From: Alphaproteobacteria bacterium | GTDB lineage: Bacteria; Pseudomonadota; Alphaproteobacteria; Caulobacterales; Hyphomonadaceae | Assembly (NCBI GenBank): GCA_016125405.1 | Contig: WGLW01000003.1 | Coordinates: 62,001-126,000 of the forward strand | Length of the DNA stretch: 64,000 nucleotides | Direction of reading: 5' to 3' | Shown here: one piece after another, positions 12,301 to 49,840 of the stretch | Layout: every line of letters begins with the position of its first letter | Numbering within the stretch: position 1 is the stretch's first letter | Position numbers and translations under genes: made by a program | The notes under the pieces: model-generated | What the model was told of the DNA's origin: nothing | What the model saw: only the letters and a program-made list of their open reading frames with translations | The model's database searches: none

Positions 12301-12657
12301 CTAGTCTGGCGCCAGCGGATCAGGCGTGCGCCATCGGGCCATCGCGATCGGCGAGGCAGGCGCGGCGTCTTCCCGCGCAGGGGCGGGATGACGGATCAGA
12401 GACGCGCGGATGCGCGGCGAGCAATTCGGGCCGTTTGTAGCGGCCGTGTTTTTCTCCAGGGAGTCGCAGTCCTGTGCGGGCAGCCGCTCCGGCGTCACGT
12501 CCGTGTGGCATTCACGGGGAAGACGGGTGAGCGGCATCCGGACAATCGTCGCGAGCGCCGACGCCAGCATCGCAATCAAACGCAGCAGCGCGCCCTGCCA
12601 GAGCTGGGTCGGCGCAGGGTTTCCAGGCCAGTGTGCGGTTGAGTGTGCCGACGTCAT
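12301..12657 (-). CDS. Possible small protein of unknown function
   Basis: A 118-codon open frame in the otherwise empty 12221-12844 interval. Third-codon positions are mostly G or C, although less strongly than in confirmed genes, and there is a plausible hydrophobic helix (ALLRLIAMLASALATIV). The remainder is Pro/Arg/Cys-rich (LPRECHTDVTPERLPAQDCD). No clear ribosome-binding site precedes ATG 12657, and the opposite strand is also open for 105 codons (12410-12724). It may be a genuine orphan gene, or the conserved-looking block may be something other than coding. The call is tentative. Confidence 0.35.
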   Translation of the reverse strand: MTSAHSTAHWPGNPAPTQLWQGALLRLIAMLASALATIVRMPLTRLPRECHTDVTPERLPAQDCDSLEKNTAATNGPNCSPRIRASLIRHPAPAREDAAPASPIAMARWRTPDPLAPD

Positions 12658-15512: not shown

Positions 15513-15554
15513 GAACGGCCGGACCATGGTGGCATGGTCCGGCCGTTCTGTTTT
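15513..15554 (+). terminator. Strong intrinsic terminator
   Basis: A perfect 16-bp stem (15513-15528 with 15533-15548), a 4-base GTGG loop and TGTTTT afterwards, between two converging genes. It ends the transcript of the exported protein at 15028. Confidence 0.9.
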
Positions 15555-15582: not shown

Positions 15583-17766
15583 TTAGTTGGCGGCGGCCGC
15601 CGCCTCCTGCGCCGCCTTCTCGTCGTTGGCGCGCTTGATGACGTAGGCCATGATGTTATCCGCGTCGCCATCGCGCAGGATGGCCTTGAACGACGGCATG
15701 CCCTGGGCGGCGCGTTCGCCGTCCACGACCTTCTTGAACATCGCCGCATCACGCAGCAGGCCGCTGTAGCGCAGGTCGGGCGCGGTGGCGCCTGCGGCCG
15801 GCACGGCGTTGCGGCCATGGCAGACGGCGCAGTTCTGGCCGTAGGCCTGTTCGCCGCCGGCCACGGTTTCGTTGTTGGCCGTCAGCAGCGGCGGGTTGAT
15901 CTTCGCCGCGGTCGGCACGCTGAGGCCGGCGGGCATGGCCGTCGGCAGGCTCGCGGTTCCGCCGGACGCGAAGACCAGGATGCGGCTGTTGTTGGCCGAG
16001 ACGGCGCTGGTGCGCTTCTGGCCGGGCGGCAGGCCGCGCGCGCCGACCAGGATCGCGATCTGCTGCTTGCCGTCGGCTTCGAAGGTCGCCGGGGCGGCGA
16101 CGACGCGGGCGCCGGTGGGCGCGGACCACAGGCGCTCGCCCGTGGTGGCGTTGTAGGCGACGAACTCGCCCTTGTGGTTGCCTGAGAAGATCAGGTTGCC
16201 CGCGGTCGCGAGCAGGCCGGAGGCGCCGTATTCCTCGTTGGGAATGCGGAAGGCTTCCTTACCCTTCACCGGGTCCCAGGCGAGGATGTAGCTGGTGATG
16301 TTGCCCTGCTTGGGCGCGCCGGGCTGCTTGAAGAGGCTGGCGCCGGCGGTGAAGTCCATCCCCGTGTTCCAGCCGTTCGGATTGTACTTGAAATCCTTCT
16401 GGGCGCCGTAGGCTGCGCTGGAGATGGTGATCGGGATGTACACGTAGCCGGTGAGCGGGCTGTAGGCCATCGGATGCCAGTTGTGCATGCCGAGCGCCGC
16501 CGGGATGATGATGGCGGGCTTGCCGGATTCCGAGTAGCGGGCCTTGGGGTTTTCAACCGGGCGGCCGGTCTTGAGGTCGATGTGGTCGGCCCAGTTGGTT
16601 TCCGGGACGTACTTGTCGGCCGAGAGCAGTTTCCCGGTCTTGGCGTCGAGGATGTAGAAGAAGCCCTGTTTCGGCGCCTGCATCACGACGTGGCGCATCT
16701 GGCCGTCACGCCATTTGAGATCGGCGAGCATGATCGGGTTGGTGTTGTCGTAGTCCCACTCGTCGCCGGGCGTTTCCTGATAGTGCCACTTGTACTCGCC
16801 CGTGTCGGCGTCGAGCGCGACGATCGAGGAGACATAGAGGTTGTCGCCGCCGCCGGGACTGCGGATTTCCTGCGCCCAGGAGAGGCCGTTGCCGGTGCCG
16901 AAATAGACCATGTTGGTCTTGGGATCGTAGACGAACGTGTCCCACACCGTGCCGCCGCCGCCGAGCTGCCAGTACTTGTCGCCATTCCACGTCTTGGCGG
17001 CGCGCTCCATCGCCTTGTTCTCGAACCCTTTCGAGGGATCGCCGGGCACGGTGTACCATTTCCAGTCGAGCTTGCCGGTCTCCGCGTCGTAGGCGGAGAC
17101 ATAGCCGCGAACGTCGTATTCGGCGCCGGCGTTGCCGATGAAGACCTTGCCGTTGGCGATGCGCGGAACGGCGGTGATGGTGTAGTGGCTGTCCTGCGGC
17201 ACGGTCCAGGTCGACCAGACTTCCTTGCCGGTCTTGCCGTCGAGCGCGATCAGGCGGCCGTCGAGTGCGCCGAGATAGATCTTGCCGTGCCAGGCGGCGA
17301 CGCCGCGGTTGACCACGTCACAGCACGCATCGGCGCCTTTCTTCTCGCGGTCGACCTTGGGGTCGTATTCCCAGAGCAGCTTGCCGGTGTGGACGTCGTA
17401 GGCCTTCACGAGGCTCCAGGCTGTCGTGAGGTACATCACGCCGTCGACGATGACGGGCGTCGATTCCTGGCCGCGTTCGGTGTCGATGTCGGCGTACCAG
17501 GAGAGGCCGAGATTGATGGAGCCGATGTTCTTGTCGTCGATCTGCTTCAGCGGGCTGAAGCGCTGTTCGTTGTAGTCCCGGCCGGCGGCGAGCCACGAGC
17601 CGGGCTCCTTGTCGGCGTTGAGCAGGCGCTGCTGGTCGACGGCGGCGGCGCCCATCTCATGTTTCATGGGGGCGGCGGCCTCGGCCGTCTTAACTGGCGC
17701 CTCGGTGTGGCAGCTGGCCAACAATGCCGGAGCGGCTACAGCCAGCGCCATCAGATACCTACGCAT
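15583..17766 (-). CDS. PQQ-dependent quinohemoprotein alcohol dehydrogenase
   Basis: A 727-residue periplasmic enzyme that oxidises alcohols or aldehydes and passes electrons to its own heme. It has a lipobox-like signal peptide (LLASC, Cys19), an eight-bladed PQQ domain with the vicinal disulfide Cys148-Cys149 that caps PQQ, and tryptophan-docking repeats (AxDxxTGKxxW). The catalytic Asp338 lies in GDEWDYDNTNP. The C-terminal cytochrome c domain has CAVCHG (Cys646, Cys649, His650) and the distal GMPSF Met. Position 340, two residues after the catalytic Asp, is Asp, whereas calcium-dependent quinohemoproteins usually have Thr, Ser or Ala; Asp there is associated with lanthanide use. The Ala/Asn-rich tail is short. 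No PQQ synthesis genes are in the window. Confidence 0.94.
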   Translation of the reverse strand: MRRYLMALAVAAPALLASCHTEAPVKTAEAAAPMKHEMGAAAVDQQRLLNADKEPGSWLAAGRDYNEQRFSPLKQIDDKNIGSINLGLSWYADIDTERGQESTPVIVDGVMYLTTAWSLVKAYDVHTGKLLWEYDPKVDREKKGADACCDVVNRGVAAWHGKIYLGALDGRLIALDGKTGKEVWSTWTVPQDSHYTITAVPRIANGKVFIGNAGAEYDVRGYVSAYDAETGKLDWKWYTVPGDPSKGFENKAMERAAKTWNGDKYWQLGGGGTVWDTFVYDPKTNMVYFGTGNGLSWAQEIRSPGGGDNLYVSSIVALDADTGEYKWHYQETPGDEWDYDNTNPIMLADLKWRDGQMRHVVMQAPKQGFFYILDAKTGKLLSADKYVPETNWADHIDLKTGRPVENPKARYSESGKPAIIIPAALGMHNWHPMAYSPLTGYVYIPITISSAAYGAQKDFKYNPNGWNTGMDFTAGASLFKQPGAPKQGNITSYILAWDPVKGKEAFRIPNEEYGASGLLATAGNLIFSGNHKGEFVAYNATTGERLWSAPTGARVVAAPATFEADGKQQIAILVGARGLPPGQKRTSAVSANNSRILVFASGGTASLPTAMPAGLSVPTAAKINPPLLTANNETVAGGEQAYGQNCAVCHGRNAVPAAGATAPDLRYSGLLRDAAMFKKVVDGERAAQGMPSFKAILRDGDADNIMAYVIKRANDEKAAQEAAAAAN

Positions 17767-17936: not shown

Positions 17937-18497
17937 CTAGTCCATCACCATGGCGCGCTGCACCAGGGCGTCGAGCGCCTCCTCGGGCGAGCGCGATTCG
18001 GCGATCAGGTCGCGGAAGCTGGCCGGGGCGAAATTGTCCTCGATCACATGGTCGATCAGGTCAAAGAAGGGCGCCCAGTAGCCGTTCTCCGACAGGAAGG
18101 CCATCGGCTTGCGGTGCAGCGACAGCTTGGCCCAGGAGAGGGTCTCGATCGCCTCCTCCAGCGTGCCGATGCCGCCGGGGAGGACGATAAACGCGTCGGC
18201 CTCGTCAAAGAGGATCTGCTTGCGCTCGTGCATGGTGTCGACGAAGCGGTGCTCGACCGCGCCGAACGTGCCCTCGATGTGCTGAAGGAATTTCGGCATC
18301 ACGCCGAGCACCTTGCCGCCGGCCTCGTGGGCCGAACTGGCCACCTGGCCCATCAGGCCGACATTGCCGCCGCCATAGACCAGACGCCATTTGCGGGCTG
18401 CGATCGCCTTGCCCAGCCGGCGGGCGAGATCGAGATAGGAGGCGTCAACCGTGTTGGACGATCCGCAATAGACGGTGACCGACTGGATTCCGGGCAT
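17937..18497 (-). CDS. LOG family / TIGR00730 Rossmann-fold protein
   Basis: A 186-residue protein of the LONELY GUY family, which hydrolyses nucleoside 5'-monophosphates (cytokinin riboside monophosphates in plants, possibly AMP in bacteria) to base plus ribose 5-phosphate. The motifs VYCGSS, LVYGGGNVGLMG and LPGGIGTLEE (the PGGxGTxxE catalytic/phosphate site) are all present. ATG 18497 is chosen because AAAGGAGG lies 4 bases upstream; a longer open frame to 18593 has no ribosome-binding site and lacks similarity. A short GC hairpin without a T run overlaps the stop. Confidence 0.93.
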   Translation of the reverse strand: MPGIQSVTVYCGSSNTVDASYLDLARRLGKAIAARKWRLVYGGGNVGLMGQVASSAHEAGGKVLGVMPKFLQHIEGTFGAVEHRFVDTMHERKQILFDEADAFIVLPGGIGTLEEAIETLSWAKLSLHRKPMAFLSENGYWAPFFDLIDHVIEDNFAPASFRDLIAESRSPEEALDALVQRAMVMD

Positions 18498-18645
18498 GTC
18501 GCCTCCTTTGTGAGCCTTATTAGATGCGTTGCTTCGGGGCGGACGGAAAGGCCGGGGGCTGCTGGCGGCCGTTCCGCCCAAAGTGATCCACAAGGCAATG
18601 GAAACTCTGGCGTTTCGCCGATGGCGGACCTAAATACCCCCGCAC

Positions 18646-20499
18646 ATGGCCATGCACCCCCATTCCCGCTCCGCCGACGTTGACGCCATCGAGAGCGGGG
18701 ACGCCGGCCTCGGCGTCTCGCTCTACCGGATCGGCAAGACGCTGGGGCGGAAGGAACTGGCCAAGTGGCGGCCGGTCATGGCGCTGGCCCTGGCGATCAC
18801 GCTGGGGTCCAAGGTCTTCGCCGTTTTCGCGCCGGTTTTCTTCGGCGACGCCATCAACAAACTGAGCGCGCCCAACGCCGTGATGGCGTCGGTTGTCCTG
18901 TTGCTGACCTGGTGGACGCTCGCGCGCATTCTTTCGACCAACCTGCCTTACGCCCGCGATGCGATGTTCGCCGCCGTGAGCCAGGACGCCCAGCGGCTGA
19001 TCGCGGTGGAGGCTTACGGCCACGCCCAGAGCCTGTCGCTGCAGTTCCACCAGACGCGGCGGACCGGGGCGCTGAACCGCGTGATCGACCGGGGCGTGGC
19101 GGCGCTGGACTACCTGATCCGGTTTCTCGGCTTCAACATCGGCCCGACGCTGATCGAGCTGGCCATGGCGTCCGTCGTGCTGGCGACGCGCTATAGCTGG
19201 CTGTCGGCGCTGACGGCCGTGGCCGTGGTGGCGATCTATGCGACGCTCACGGGCCTCCTCACCAACTGGCGGGTGAAGCAGCGGCGAAAGCTCAACGCGG
19301 CCGACACCGAACTGCGCGCCATGGCCGTGGACTCGCTCACCAATTTCGAGACGGTGAAGGCCTTCGCCGCCGAGGAGCGCGAAACCATGCGCTATGACGC
19401 GACGATGCGCGTCTACAACCGGCACATGATTGATGTGATGCGCTCGCTGGCGCTGCTCAACTCGGTGCAGGACATCATCATGGCGCTGGGGCTGACGGCC
19501 GTGGCCGGGATCACCGCCATGTCGGTGGCGGGCGGCTATGCGCAGGCGGGCGACATCGCCGCCGTGGTGCTGATCATGGGGAACCTCTACCGGCCGCTGT
19601 CGATCCTCGGCTTCGCCTTCCGCGAGATCAAGCAAGGCGCCATCGACCTCGAGAAGCTCTACGGCCTGATGGGCATGAAGCAGGAAGTGGCCGACGCGCC
19701 GGACGCGACGCCGCTCGATGCGCGGGGCGGGGAGGTGCGGTTCGAGGACGTGTCGTTCGCGCATGACGCGCGCGCCGCCGGGCTGGAGCATGTGTCGTTC
19801 AGCGTGCCGGCAGGCAAGAAGATCGCCATCGTCGGGCCGTCGGGCTCGGGCAAGTCGACGCTGCTGAAACTGCTGTTCCGCTTTTACGACGTGCAGGGCG
19901 GCAAGGTGGTGGTGGACGGCCAGGACGTGCGCGACGTGAAGCAGGCGAGCCTGCGCGATGCGATCGGTCTGGTGCCGCAGGAAGTGGTGCTGTTCAACAC
20001 CTCGCTCAAGGAAAACCTGACCTACGGCAAGCCCGACGCAACCGACGCGGAAGTCCGCTCGGCGGCGGAGCGGGCGCGGCTGCTGGAGTTCATCGACAAA
20101 CTGCCCAAGGGCTGGGACACGCGCGTGGGCGAGCGGGGCGTGAAGCTGTCGGGCGGGGAGCGCCAACGCGTCGGCATTGCGCGGGCGATACTGAAAGACC
20201 CGGAGATCCTTGTGCTGGACGAGGCGACGTCGGCGCTGGATTCAGCAACGGAACAGGAAGTTCAGGGTGCGCTGGACGAGGCCGCGCGCGGGCGCACGAC
20301 GCTGATGGTGGCGCACCGTCTGTCGACCGTGGCGGGCGCCGACGAGATTATCGTGCTGCAGGAAGGCCGTATCGTGGAGCGCGGGGCGCACCAGGATCTG
20401 CTGATGCAGGGCGGGCTTTATGCTGACCTCTGGAGCCGTCAGGCCCGCACGCGCGAGGACGCGGAGGAAGCAGGCCAGCCCGAGAGTGAGGTGGCCTAG
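18646..20499 (+). CDS. Atm1/ABCB7-type ABC exporter (permease-ATPase fusion)
   Basis: A 617-residue half transporter that works as a homodimer. The N-terminal 340 residues hold about six membrane helices, with GALNRVIDRG and FLGFNIGPTLIELAMAS, hallmark segments of the Atm1/HMT1 family that exports glutathione-linked metal or sulfur compounds. The C-terminal ATPase has Walker A GPSGSGKST (about residue 397), the signature LSGGERQR (about 502), Walker B ILVLDEATSALD and the H-loop VAHRLST. A hydrophilic tail ends the protein. In alphaproteobacteria Atm1 confers resistance to heavy metals; glutathione peroxidases lie 800 bases downstream. The substrate is inferred from family. Confidence 0.93.
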   Translation: MAMHPHSRSADVDAIESGDAGLGVSLYRIGKTLGRKELAKWRPVMALALAITLGSKVFAVFAPVFFGDAINKLSAPNAVMASVVLLLTWWTLARILSTNLPYARDAMFAAVSQDAQRLIAVEAYGHAQSLSLQFHQTRRTGALNRVIDRGVAALDYLIRFLGFNIGPTLIELAMASVVLATRYSWLSALTAVAVVAIYATLTGLLTNWRVKQRRKLNAADTELRAMAVDSLTNFETVKAFAAEERETMRYDATMRVYNRHMIDVMRSLALLNSVQDIIMALGLTAVAGITAMSVAGGYAQAGDIAAVVLIMGNLYRPLSILGFAFREIKQGAIDLEKLYGLMGMKQEVADAPDATPLDARGGEVRFEDVSFAHDARAAGLEHVSFSVPAGKKIAIVGPSGSGKSTLLKLLFRFYDVQGGKVVVDGQDVRDVKQASLRDAIGLVPQEVVLFNTSLKENLTYGKPDATDAEVRSAAERARLLEFIDKLPKGWDTRVGERGVKLSGGERQRVGIARAILKDPEILVLDEATSALDSATEQEVQGALDEAARGRTTLMVAHRLSTVAGADEIIVLQEGRIVERGAHQDLLMQGGLYADLWSRQARTREDAEEAGQPESEVA

Positions 20500-47137: not shown

Positions 47138-47332
47138 AGGGCGAATCGGCGGCTGCTCTGGAGGTCTGGCGGCCGGCCTCGCGGCGATGTCGCGCACGCG
47201 CTTGTGACGCCCCGCCCGAATGTCCCTGCGTCCGAGACGCCTTTTCATCCAGTCAAACAACGGGGTAGTCTCTCCCAAAGGTCGGGCTTGCGGGTTGGCG
47301 AGCGCACAACGACCATCAGGGAGGAGGACGGG

Positions 47333-49840
47333 ATGGCCGCTCGCATAGCGCAGTGGGTTTTTGCGGCATTTCTGGTGCTGGTGGGAGGATATCTCGCCTG
47401 GCTCGGGGTCAAGCTTATCGGCATGGGCGGCAGCTACTATTACGCGCCGGTCGGCCTTGGCCTGATCGCGGTCGCGGTCCTGCTGGTTCTCCGCAATGTG
47501 TGGGGGCCGCGCCTTTACGCCGCCATTACCGCCATCACCGTTGTCTGGGCACTTTTTGAGTCCGGTCTCGATTTCATCGCCCTGCTGCCCCGGCTGGCGG
47601 CGTTCCTCGTTGTCGGCCTCTGGTTCCTTTCGCCCTGGTCACGCGCCGCGATGCGCAAGGATGACGGCGGACCCGAGCCGAGTTCCGGGCGCTGGGTCGG
47701 CGGCGCGATCGCGCTTGGCGCGCTGGCGCTCGTGGTCGCGTCGTTCCAAGGCTATCACGTCGAGCAGGGGACACAGAACGAGATCGCGGCAAATGTGCCG
47801 CCCGTCACAGACTGGCGCGCCTATGGCGGCACGACGCTGGCGACGCGGTTCGGCCAGATCGACCAGATCAACGAAAAGAACGTCAAGAACCTGAAGGAAG
47901 TCTGGCGTTATCGCACGGGCGTCGCCTACGACTTCAAGGATACGCCGCAGGAAGCCAACGGTCTCGTCTATGTCTGCACGGCCGGCAACACGCTGATCGC
48001 GCTGGACGGCGACACCGGTACCGAAAAATGGCGCTATGACACGAAGACGAAAGTGCCGGGCGCGCGCAACGGCGGCCTCGATGGCGCCTCTACTTTCGCG
48101 CGCACCTGCCGGGGTCTCGCCTATCATGAGGCGCCGGCCGGCTATACCGGCGACTGCCCCAAACGCATTCTCACCAACACGACGGATGCGCGCCTGATCG
48201 CGGTTGATGCGCTTACCGGCGCACCCTGCCGCGGCTTCGGGTTCGATGGAGCCGTGAACCTTGAATCGGGTCTGGGGCCGCACAATGCGGGCGAGTACAT
48301 GACGACATCGGCGCCGCTGGTCGCCGGCGACATCGTCGTGATGGGCGGATGGGTCACCGACAACCAGATGCTGGGCAACGTGTCCGGCGTCGTGCGCGCC
48401 TACAACGCCATGACCGGCGCATTCGTTTGGGCGTGGGACCTTGGCAATCCGGGCTATCACGGCCTGCCGGATGAAGGCGGCGAATACACGCGTGGAACGC
48501 CGAATGCGTGGACCAACATGAGCTACGATCCGCAGCTCAACATGATCTACGCGGCGACAGGCAACTCCTCGCCGGACTATTTCGACGGCGACCTGCGCAC
48601 GCAATATGCCGAGGACTATGCAAGCTCTGTCGTCGCCATCGATGCGGCGACGGGTTCGCCGAAATGGCATTTCCAGACAGTCCACCGCGACATCTGGGAC
48701 TATGACGTCCCTTCGCAGCCGGTTCTGGTGAACATCAAGCGCGATGGGCAGGACGTTCCAACCGTTGCGGTGCCAACGAAGCGCGGCGAAATCTTCCTGT
48801 TCGACCGCCGCGACGGTACGCCCATCTATCCGATCGAGGAGCGCCCTGTGCCGCAGGGCGGGGCGGAGGGCGAGCGCACAGCCCCGACCCAACCCTTCTC
48901 ACCGTTGCCGAACTTCCGGCCGGACCAGACCGAGGCGCGGATGTGGGGGCTCACGCCGCTCGACCAGCTCTACTGCCGGGTCCAGTACAAGAAGCTCCGC
49001 TACGAGGGCCACTTCACGCCGCCCATGCGTGGCGGTGGGGGCGGGGATACGGGCAAGCCGGCCTATGGCGGGTCGTTCCAGTATCCGGGCAACGCCGGCG
49101 GCTTCAACTGGGGTTCTGTTTCGGTGGACGCCGACAATGGTCTTCTGGTCGCCCGGCCGATGCTGATGGGCAACCGCATCGTCTTGCGCACGCAGGACGA
49201 GATCAAGGCTGACCGCGCAGCGGCGGCTGCGGCGCGGGAAAAACAGCCGGTCGACGAACATGCCGGCCCGGCGCCGACCCGTCGCGCCCCGGTCGTTCCA
49301 AGGCCATCGGATCCCAAATACGCGCCCGAACGGGTGAAGTATGTCGGCATGACCGCGCCGTTCATGTCGGAGTGGAAAATCCCGCTCCTCGGCATCGGCA
49401 CGCAGGTGCCTTGCTTCCAGCCGCCCTGGGGCGTGATCGCCGTGATCGACCTCAACACCAACAAGCTGCTGTGGGAGCATGCGACCGGCAGCATGAAGGA
49501 CTCGGGGCCGTTCGGCATCAAGACGGGGCTGCCGTTCGTGGTCGGTACGCCGGTTCAGGCCGGAACGATGACCACGCGCGGCGGGCTGATCTTCGATGGC
49601 GGGGCGATGGATTCCACCATCCGCGCCTTCGGCCTGCGTGACGGCAAGGTGAAGTGGCAGGCGCCCCTGCCGGGCAGCGCACATGCAACGCCGATGACCT
49701 ACCTCTCGCCGACCACGGGCAAGCAGTATGTGGTCATCACGGTGCCCAACCCGCCGTGGCAGTACCCGCGCTCTAGCGACGACAAGCCCTCGGATGACAA
49801 GGGCGGCTGGGTGATCGCCTACGCGCTGAAGGACAAATAG
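47333..49840 (+). CDS. gcd: Membrane-bound PQQ-dependent glucose/quinate/shikimate-type dehydrogenase
   Basis: An 835-residue quinoprotein that oxidises sugars or quinate/shikimate in the periplasm and passes electrons to ubiquinone. Five hydrophobic helices in the first 130 residues anchor it. The PQQ domain has the catalytic Asp in HRDIWDYDVPSQP, a TATGNSSPDYF segment and several blade repeats (AxDxxTGSPKW). The C-terminus has RGGLIFDGGAMDSTIRAFGLRDGK, the family signature. The exact substrate (glucose or quinate) is not clear. ATG 47333 follows GGGAGGAGGACGG. The second PQQ enzyme of the window. Confidence 0.92.
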   Translation: MAARIAQWVFAAFLVLVGGYLAWLGVKLIGMGGSYYYAPVGLGLIAVAVLLVLRNVWGPRLYAAITAITVVWALFESGLDFIALLPRLAAFLVVGLWFLSPWSRAAMRKDDGGPEPSSGRWVGGAIALGALALVVASFQGYHVEQGTQNEIAANVPPVTDWRAYGGTTLATRFGQIDQINEKNVKNLKEVWRYRTGVAYDFKDTPQEANGLVYVCTAGNTLIALDGDTGTEKWRYDTKTKVPGARNGGLDGASTFARTCRGLAYHEAPAGYTGDCPKRILTNTTDARLIAVDALTGAPCRGFGFDGAVNLESGLGPHNAGEYMTTSAPLVAGDIVVMGGWVTDNQMLGNVSGVVRAYNAMTGAFVWAWDLGNPGYHGLPDEGGEYTRGTPNAWTNMSYDPQLNMIYAATGNSSPDYFDGDLRTQYAEDYASSVVAIDAATGSPKWHFQTVHRDIWDYDVPSQPVLVNIKRDGQDVPTVAVPTKRGEIFLFDRRDGTPIYPIEERPVPQGGAEGERTAPTQPFSPLPNFRPDQTEARMWGLTPLDQLYCRVQYKKLRYEGHFTPPMRGGGGGDTGKPAYGGSFQYPGNAGGFNWGSVSVDADNGLLVARPMLMGNRIVLRTQDEIKADRAAAAAAREKQPVDEHAGPAPTRRAPVVPRPSDPKYAPERVKYVGMTAPFMSEWKIPLLGIGTQVPCFQPPWGVIAVIDLNTNKLLWEHATGSMKDSGPFGIKTGLPFVVGTPVQAGTMTTRGGLIFDGGAMDSTIRAFGLRDGKVKWQAPLPGSAHATPMTYLSPTTGKQYVVITVPNPPWQYPRSSDDKPSDDKGGWVIAYALKDK

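Follow-up and report, generated by a model that had tools for sequence, protein, structure and literature searches.

A heme-fused alcohol dehydrogenase from Hyphomonadaceae with the Asp-x-Asp motif of lanthanide enzymes, apparently arisen within an Asp-x-Thr family

Could an alcohol dehydrogenase that carries its own heme c use a lanthanide in place of calcium? The question is raised by a gene on the minus strand (positions 15583–17766) of a 64,000-nucleotide stretch of a Hyphomonadaceae genome (assembly GCA_016125405.1, contig WGLW01000003.1, positions 62,001–126,000), here called the window. The gene encodes a 727-residue protein that homology, domain search and fold identify as a type II quinohemoprotein alcohol dehydrogenase, a pyrroloquinoline quinone (PQQ) propeller fused to a cytochrome c. 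Two residues after the Asp that acts as catalytic base by homology stands a second Asp (D-x-D), which an earlier note on the window took for a lanthanide signature in an enzyme type that normally has Thr at that place (D-x-T). From the comparisons below, we regard it as an evenly balanced matter whether this is a lanthanide-preferring quinohemoprotein alcohol dehydrogenase, though none of the rival readings is as likely.

The motif itself is real. The codons of Asp338-Tyr339-Asp340 lie at 16747–16755 (TPGDEWDYDNTNP), exactly where the earlier note had placed them, with Asp338, which by homology acts as base and binds the metal, at 16753–16755 and Asp340, the lanthanide-type second Asp, encoded by GAC at 16747–16749. 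In the alignments, Asp340 is in register with the second Asp of PedH and XoxF, in line with its description as a lanthanide signature; the XoxF structures 4mae, 6oc5, 6dam and 7o6z are D-x-D, and 1kb0, aligned with the XoxF of the window's genome, is D-x-T. That quinohemoproteins normally carry Thr was borne out by all four solved examples in the printed alignments (1kv9, 1yiq, 8gy2 and 1kb0). Asp340 was ruled out as a misread base or a lone variant, being present also in a paralog and in two other genomes (G103 and G104) of the genus to which the window's genome (G000; 3.86 Mb, 99.99% complete) belongs. Residues 328–344 are identical in these four proteins. The other three are 70–78% identical to the target overall, and the ratio of nonsynonymous to synonymous substitution (dN/dS, Nei–Gojobori) of the target gene is 0.31 against the paralog and 0.32 against L039, the G104 copy. 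An identical segment at this overall divergence, together with a dN/dS of about 0.3, indicates that D-x-D is more than a chance replacement.

The rest of the protein has the make-up of a quinohemoprotein dehydrogenase (all features on the minus strand). A Pfam search found the PQQ propeller (PF01011, 6.5e-71), the NCBIfam model TIGR03075 scored 611 bits (cut-off 480) and places the protein in the methanol/ethanol family of PQQ dehydrogenases, and a C-terminal cytochrome c domain (PF13442) covers residues 635–709. This domain contains the CxxCH heme c attachment site CAVCH (C646-x-x-C649-H650; 15817–15831), kept in heme-type relatives in an eight-row alignment, and Met690 (15697–15699), nearly invariant in a 59-row alignment and probably the second heme iron ligand. 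The PQQ-site set is complete: by homology, the adjacent cysteines C148 and C149 (17320–17325) form the vicinal disulfide, and Glu216 (17119–17121) and Asn293 (16888–16890; invariant in the 59-row alignment) bind the metal with Asp338. Lys366 (16669–16671), the active-site Lys of the quinohemoprotein family, is invariant in the eight-row alignment. The N-terminal signal peptide (17710–17766) has a lipobox-like LLASC (Cys19), a pattern shared by 14 of 21 scanned rows, which suggests lipid anchoring of a predicted lipoprotein. The protein is probably periplasmic and lipid-anchored, with PQQ and heme c.

The closest solved relatives by phmmer were 1kv9 (1.1e-199), then 1yiq, 8gy2 and 1kb0, followed by PedH (6zcv, 2.1e-102). 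We used an AlphaFold model built on the 59-row alignment, which combines window and locus proteins, with a mean predicted local distance difference test score (pLDDT) of 87.4 and 91 over residues 331–340; a model from only eight rows reached 62.8, with residues 333–342 below 50. The closest folds to the predicted structure were 1kv9 (Z 54.0, root mean square deviation (rmsd) 2.3, 645 residues aligned), 1yiq (53.7) and 1kb0 (53.3), effectively tied. These three enzymes, ADH-IIB, ADH-IIG and Comamonas QH-EDH, are homologous to the target over their full length with the same domain order (Z 53.3–54.0 over 642–654 residues) and have the same vicinal Cys, Glu, Asn, Asp and Lys; they differ in D-x-T and Gln at 343, where the target has D-x-D, N343, a remodelled loop and the lipobox-like N terminus. 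The type III membrane alcohol dehydrogenase subunit of acetic acid bacteria (8gy2, Z 51.2) is heme-fused like the target, but is D-x-T and belongs to a multi-subunit complex. PedH (6zcv and 6zcw) shares with the target D-x-D, an Asn three residues on and the propeller fold (Z 47.7, rmsd 2.0, 523 aligned), whereas it matches in the propeller only, lacks a heme domain, is 38% identical and differs from the target just before the Glu ligand (Gly, against Ala215) and at position 296 (Pro, against Ser296). XoxF (4mae, 6oc5, 6dam and 7o6z; Z 44.7–47.6) is likewise D-x-D but a propeller-only match, with Gly and Thr at the Ala215 and Ser296 positions in 4mae, 6dam and 6oc5.

Asp340 does not stand alone in its change. 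When the four D-x-D rows were compared with 17 D-x-T rows, with the truncated L024 of G103 counted only up to residue 390, 15 positions were fixed differently, and six of them (331, 335, 336, 340, 341 and 343) fall within the remodelled metal-site loop of residues 331–343 (ETPGDEWDYDNTN; 16738–16776, minus strand), a stretch amounting to 1.8% of the protein. At positions 340 and 343 the target shares its residues, D340 and N343, with PedH, with the XoxF of this genome and with three type 2b-like rows. Only D340 is informative on the metal, because D335 is found in calcium references too and calcium-type MxaF also has Asn at position 343. The codon for residue 340 is GAC in the target and ACC or ACG in three D-x-T copies, a difference of two or three bases.

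Where the second Asp came from was addressed with trees. The family search gave a match to the window protein in 100 of 105 genomes, and 11 of 21 relatives among the genome contigs were labelled Hyphomonadaceae or Hyphomonas. The D-x-D clade draws its four members from three genomes of the genus: the target, its paralog on contig C56 of the same genome (71% identical), L010/L039 of G104 (72–73%) and L024; a remoter D-x-D protein of the methanol/ethanol heme type (L073, also G104) falls outside it. The D-x-T homologs are 59–67% identical to the target, and those that cover the motif read DYTATQP or DYTAVQP. In a tree computed without the motif columns, the clade had a Shimodaira–Hasegawa-like approximate likelihood ratio test (SH-aLRT) support of 100 and was enclosed by a group of 10 rows (95) and one of 13 (99), both otherwise D-x-T. 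A second tree again gave 100, with enclosing groups at 97 and 99, and a heme-only tree of 60 rows gave 99, the neighbours within its 21-row group being less firm than in the other trees. Identical copies, L027–L034 (near-copies of L026), the fragments L057 and L058 and the remote PQQ proteins of G000 were left out beforehand, as were L007, L036 and L084 from the second tree and heme-free rows from the 60-row tree and the single-origin test below. That the target is a XoxF or a PedH/ExaF family protein proper was rejected, as it has a heme domain and groups with the quinohemoproteins, with PedH, the genome's XoxF and the heme-free rows on the other side of the tree.

The neighbourhood of the gene points the same way. 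Upstream lie a LOG/lysine-decarboxylase-like gene (17937–18593, minus strand) and an ABC transporter gene (18646–20499, plus strand), which neighbourhood comparison identified as syntenic markers of the locus. Both adjoin the target, L010/L039 and L024, and also nine of the 15 named D-x-T homolog loci (L040–L053 and L056); the six without them include L040 and L044, which had little upstream sequence. Three of the four D-x-D copies thus share their locus with D-x-T copies, which puts both states at one ancestral locus, and the C56 paralog is situated elsewhere, near an smpB gene. Import of the gene together with its Asp was unsupported, these neighbours being common to D-x-D and D-x-T loci. 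The trees and the locus together suggest that the Thr-to-Asp change arose inside a D-x-T, calcium-type family at this shared site. Three D-x-T homologs 60–63% identical to the target (L045, L049 and L053) come from two metagenome-assembled genomes labelled Acidobacteria or Luteitalea, and may reflect gene transfer or misbinned contigs. Another quinohemoprotein homolog (L074, G103:C15) reads WAYTATQ, with Ala where the catalytic Asp would be, and is possibly inactive.

How rare is D-x-D in enzymes of this build? Among 398 genomes drawn from the order, six had a match to an exact DNA pattern for T-P-[GDE]-[DE]-x-W-D-[YF]-D (eight places, seven with CxxCH and the eighth cut by a contig end), against 143 for the same pattern with Thr. 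The phylum draw gave 7 of 398 genomes (eight places, three of them without a heme motif and type 2b-like) and the class draw 7 of 385 (eight places); the three draws overlap, and the counts are lower bounds because exact patterns miss variants such as the PAETW ortholog L013. The earlier note's expectation that such a protein would be unusual is upheld by these numbers, but not as a lone case, for D-x-D recurs in five other quinohemoprotein groups. The 60-row heme-type tree held 41 D-x-T, 14 D-x-D, two D-x-N, two D-x-G and one A-x-T row, a composition that is not a frequency because D-x-D rows were chosen deliberately; L024, one of the 14, ends at a contig end before the heme domain. The 14 D-x-D genes form six groups and require six parsimony changes, a figure valid for that row set, in which the nearest D-x-T relatives of L119–L122 were not sampled. 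The approximately unbiased (AU) test rejected a single origin for the first 10 of these D-x-D proteins (p = 2.6e-124), the group having been named after the tree was seen. By these comparisons, D-x-D in the heme-fused type is rare yet recurrent. Two further CxxCH PQQ proteins of G000 (L070 and L071, contigs C48 and C55) are nearer to the glucose dehydrogenase model and read GLWDYD, so that a heme motif with D-x-D occurs beyond the alcohol dehydrogenase type too. In L054 and L055 (Sinimarinibacterium, Salinisphaerales), the motif is D-x-N and the vicinal cysteines are lacking.

The genome was then considered for signs of lanthanide use. It encodes a XoxF outside the window, at C55:10646–12700 (L069:4647–6701; best match 4mae, 6.4e-165; motif DQWDYDGVNE), and xoxF is followed on C55 first by a cytochrome c gene and then, at a greater distance, by the gene of a COX1-type oxidase. 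Foreign origin of this contig was unsupported, as 10 of the 14 other genomes of the genus have a gltB 81–84% identical to the one it carries; the GC content of the XoxF stretch (0.597, versus 0.655 for the window) may mark an acquired island. XoxF was not found in those 14 genomes, where the best match was a PQQ protein 33–39% identical to the XoxF of G000, an absence that weighs less for the three that are 73–78% complete. Lanmodulin, which the earlier note had proposed to look for, did not turn up either: a lanmodulin-type EF-hand pattern had no match in G000, and it matched two of the 15 genus genomes (three places) in frames unlike lanmodulin.

The supply of PQQ raises a parallel question. 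The best PqqE match in G000 reached 61 bits against a curated cut-off of 381, and none of the 105 family genomes exceeded that cut-off, though PQQ enzymes are common there. As controls, 0 of 14 standard genomes and 4 of 12 further genomes scored above it, and the latter show that the search is able to detect PqqE. With no PqqE in evidence, the bacterium would import PQQ as well as the metal; such import is probable for the window's bacterium on these searches, and the whole family may live on imported PQQ. Published work describes PQQ import by PqqU (PMC12124388).

A lanthanide preference could have come about as follows. In the ancestor of this small clade within one Hyphomonadaceae genus, Thr340 would have become Asp as the metal loop around it was also remodelled. 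Asp340 would then be an added carboxylate ligand beside Glu216, Asn293, Asp338 and PQQ, and the site would prefer a light trivalent lanthanide as Lewis acid. With Asp338 as base, hydride would pass from the substrate, presumably an alcohol or aldehyde, to PQQ, and electrons would leave through the fused heme c (C646/C649/H650 and Met690) to a downstream acceptor. The wider proposal, that calcium-type quinohemoproteins regained lanthanide use several times by Thr-to-Asp changes, each with a built-in heme wire, and that one such case, with PQQ imported like the metal, is seen in the window protein and its paralog, we hold tentatively, at somewhat short of an even chance. Precedent comes from heme-free enzymes: the extra Asp binds the metal in crystal structures of XoxF and PedH (PMC11845868), and PedH, with Asp, is a lanthanide enzyme whose calcium twin PedE has Ser (PMC5487730). 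According to a 2025 paper, biochemically confirmed lanthanide enzymes comprise XoxF plus ExaF and PedH of type 2b, and the lanthanide motif is carried by most or all members of 14 out of 17 ocean PQQ families (PMC11996626). Type 6a has been called putatively lanthanide-containing (PMC8561711). In the open-access excerpts consulted, no description of a lanthanide-dependent quinohemoprotein was found, the spelling 'quinohaemoprotein' not being covered; in PMC8969499 and PMC12639127, the excerpts have 'quinohemoprotein' only in the reference lists.

The lanthanide interpretation of the earlier note is partly supported: it is carried by the exact D-x-D register, by the nesting among D-x-T homologs at a shared locus and by a XoxF in the genome, and is held back by Ala215 and by the lanmodulin result. 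The retained PQQ-site and heme residues, the six clade-specific replacements in the loop, the dN/dS of about 0.3 and the repeated gain of D-x-D also speak for it. Several points count against it. Just before the Glu ligand, all four clade members share an Ala with the calcium-type references, a place taken by Gly in XoxF (Gly171) and PedH, and a review proposes that this Gly helps to accommodate larger lanthanides (PMC11845868). Ala or Ser occupies that place in each of the 14 D-x-D quinohemoproteins, two of which (L119 and L120) have Asp in place of the Glu ligand itself. Gly at 215 is nonetheless not diagnostic either way, because some D-x-T rows (L026 and L035) have it. The position of XoxF Thr259 is Ser296 in the target and Ser or Ala in the clade; Thr is present in 4mae, 6dam and 6oc5, and Pro in 17 sister rows and PedH, so Thr is not universal. 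In addition, neither G103 nor G104, the other genomes with the clade, yielded a XoxF, and G000 gave no match to the lanmodulin-type pattern.

Part of this evidence would fit an enzyme that has kept calcium, with Asp340 serving as an extra or second-shell ligand or as a partner in a hydrogen bond, a reading we consider rather unlikely but, like the mixed use discussed next, a serious rival. It would account for Ala215, and it has parallels in m-GDH, a membrane-bound D-x-D enzyme of a different family (TIGR03074) described with Ca, Mg, Zn or Sr, for which the same authors predict facultative lanthanide use (PMC11996626), and in a D-x-D XoxF1 that seemed to contain Ca (PMC9291206). An m-GDH-like D-x-D gene even lies within the window, at 47204–49840 (plus strand; 781 bits with TIGR03074, short of its cut-off of 833; motif DIWDYD). 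Yet the D-x-D enzymes of the methanol/ethanol type that have been studied, PedH and XoxF, use lanthanides (PMC5487730 and PMC11845868), another XoxF1 structure holds neodymium by its title (7o6z), and the Thr-to-Asp change needed at least two base changes and was fixed along with other changes in the loop. A site that works with Ca2+ and light lanthanides alike, useful where lanthanide supply is unsure, would suit the mixture of a lanthanide-type Asp with a calcium-type Ala215, the lack of XoxF alongside the clade in G103 and G104 and the lack of a lanmodulin-like match in the genus; calcium-type PedE, which has no such Asp, keeps 60–80% of its activity at 10 mM lanthanides (PMC10409515), a result that also tells against the lanthanide reading. 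The division of labour between PedH (Asp, lanthanide) and its twin PedE (Ser, calcium) suggests that preference can be strict (PMC5487730), and we think such promiscuity improbable. Finally, the joint change of E331, D335, E336, N341 and N343 with D340 might have altered the substrate range or mark a lost dehydrogenase function, with the metal incidental. Against this stand the intact PQQ-site, disulfide and heme residues and the dN/dS of about 0.3, and it appears very improbable.

If the lanthanide reading is right, a lanthanide-dependent quinohemoprotein would form a class with metal, PQQ and heme in one chain, useful for electrodes and electron-transfer studies. It would also bear on the history of these enzymes. 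One view takes the lanthanide enzymes as the ancestral form and calcium enzymes as possibly derived (PMC10409515); within the heme-fused family, the residue change in our trees appears to run in the opposite direction. Natural D-x-T partners about 67% identical to the target at the same locus (L041 and L056) make the effect of the change directly testable.

Two minor features lie near the gene. Beyond its stop codon, at 15513–15548, is a perfect 16-bp inverted repeat with a 4-nt spacer, probably a terminator. A small open reading frame at 12301–12657 (minus strand) resembles another at L063:10349–10786 (plus strand; 50% over 82 residues, E 2e-22); each lies within a few kilobases of one D-x-D quinohemoprotein gene, and the two may represent a dispersed repeat.

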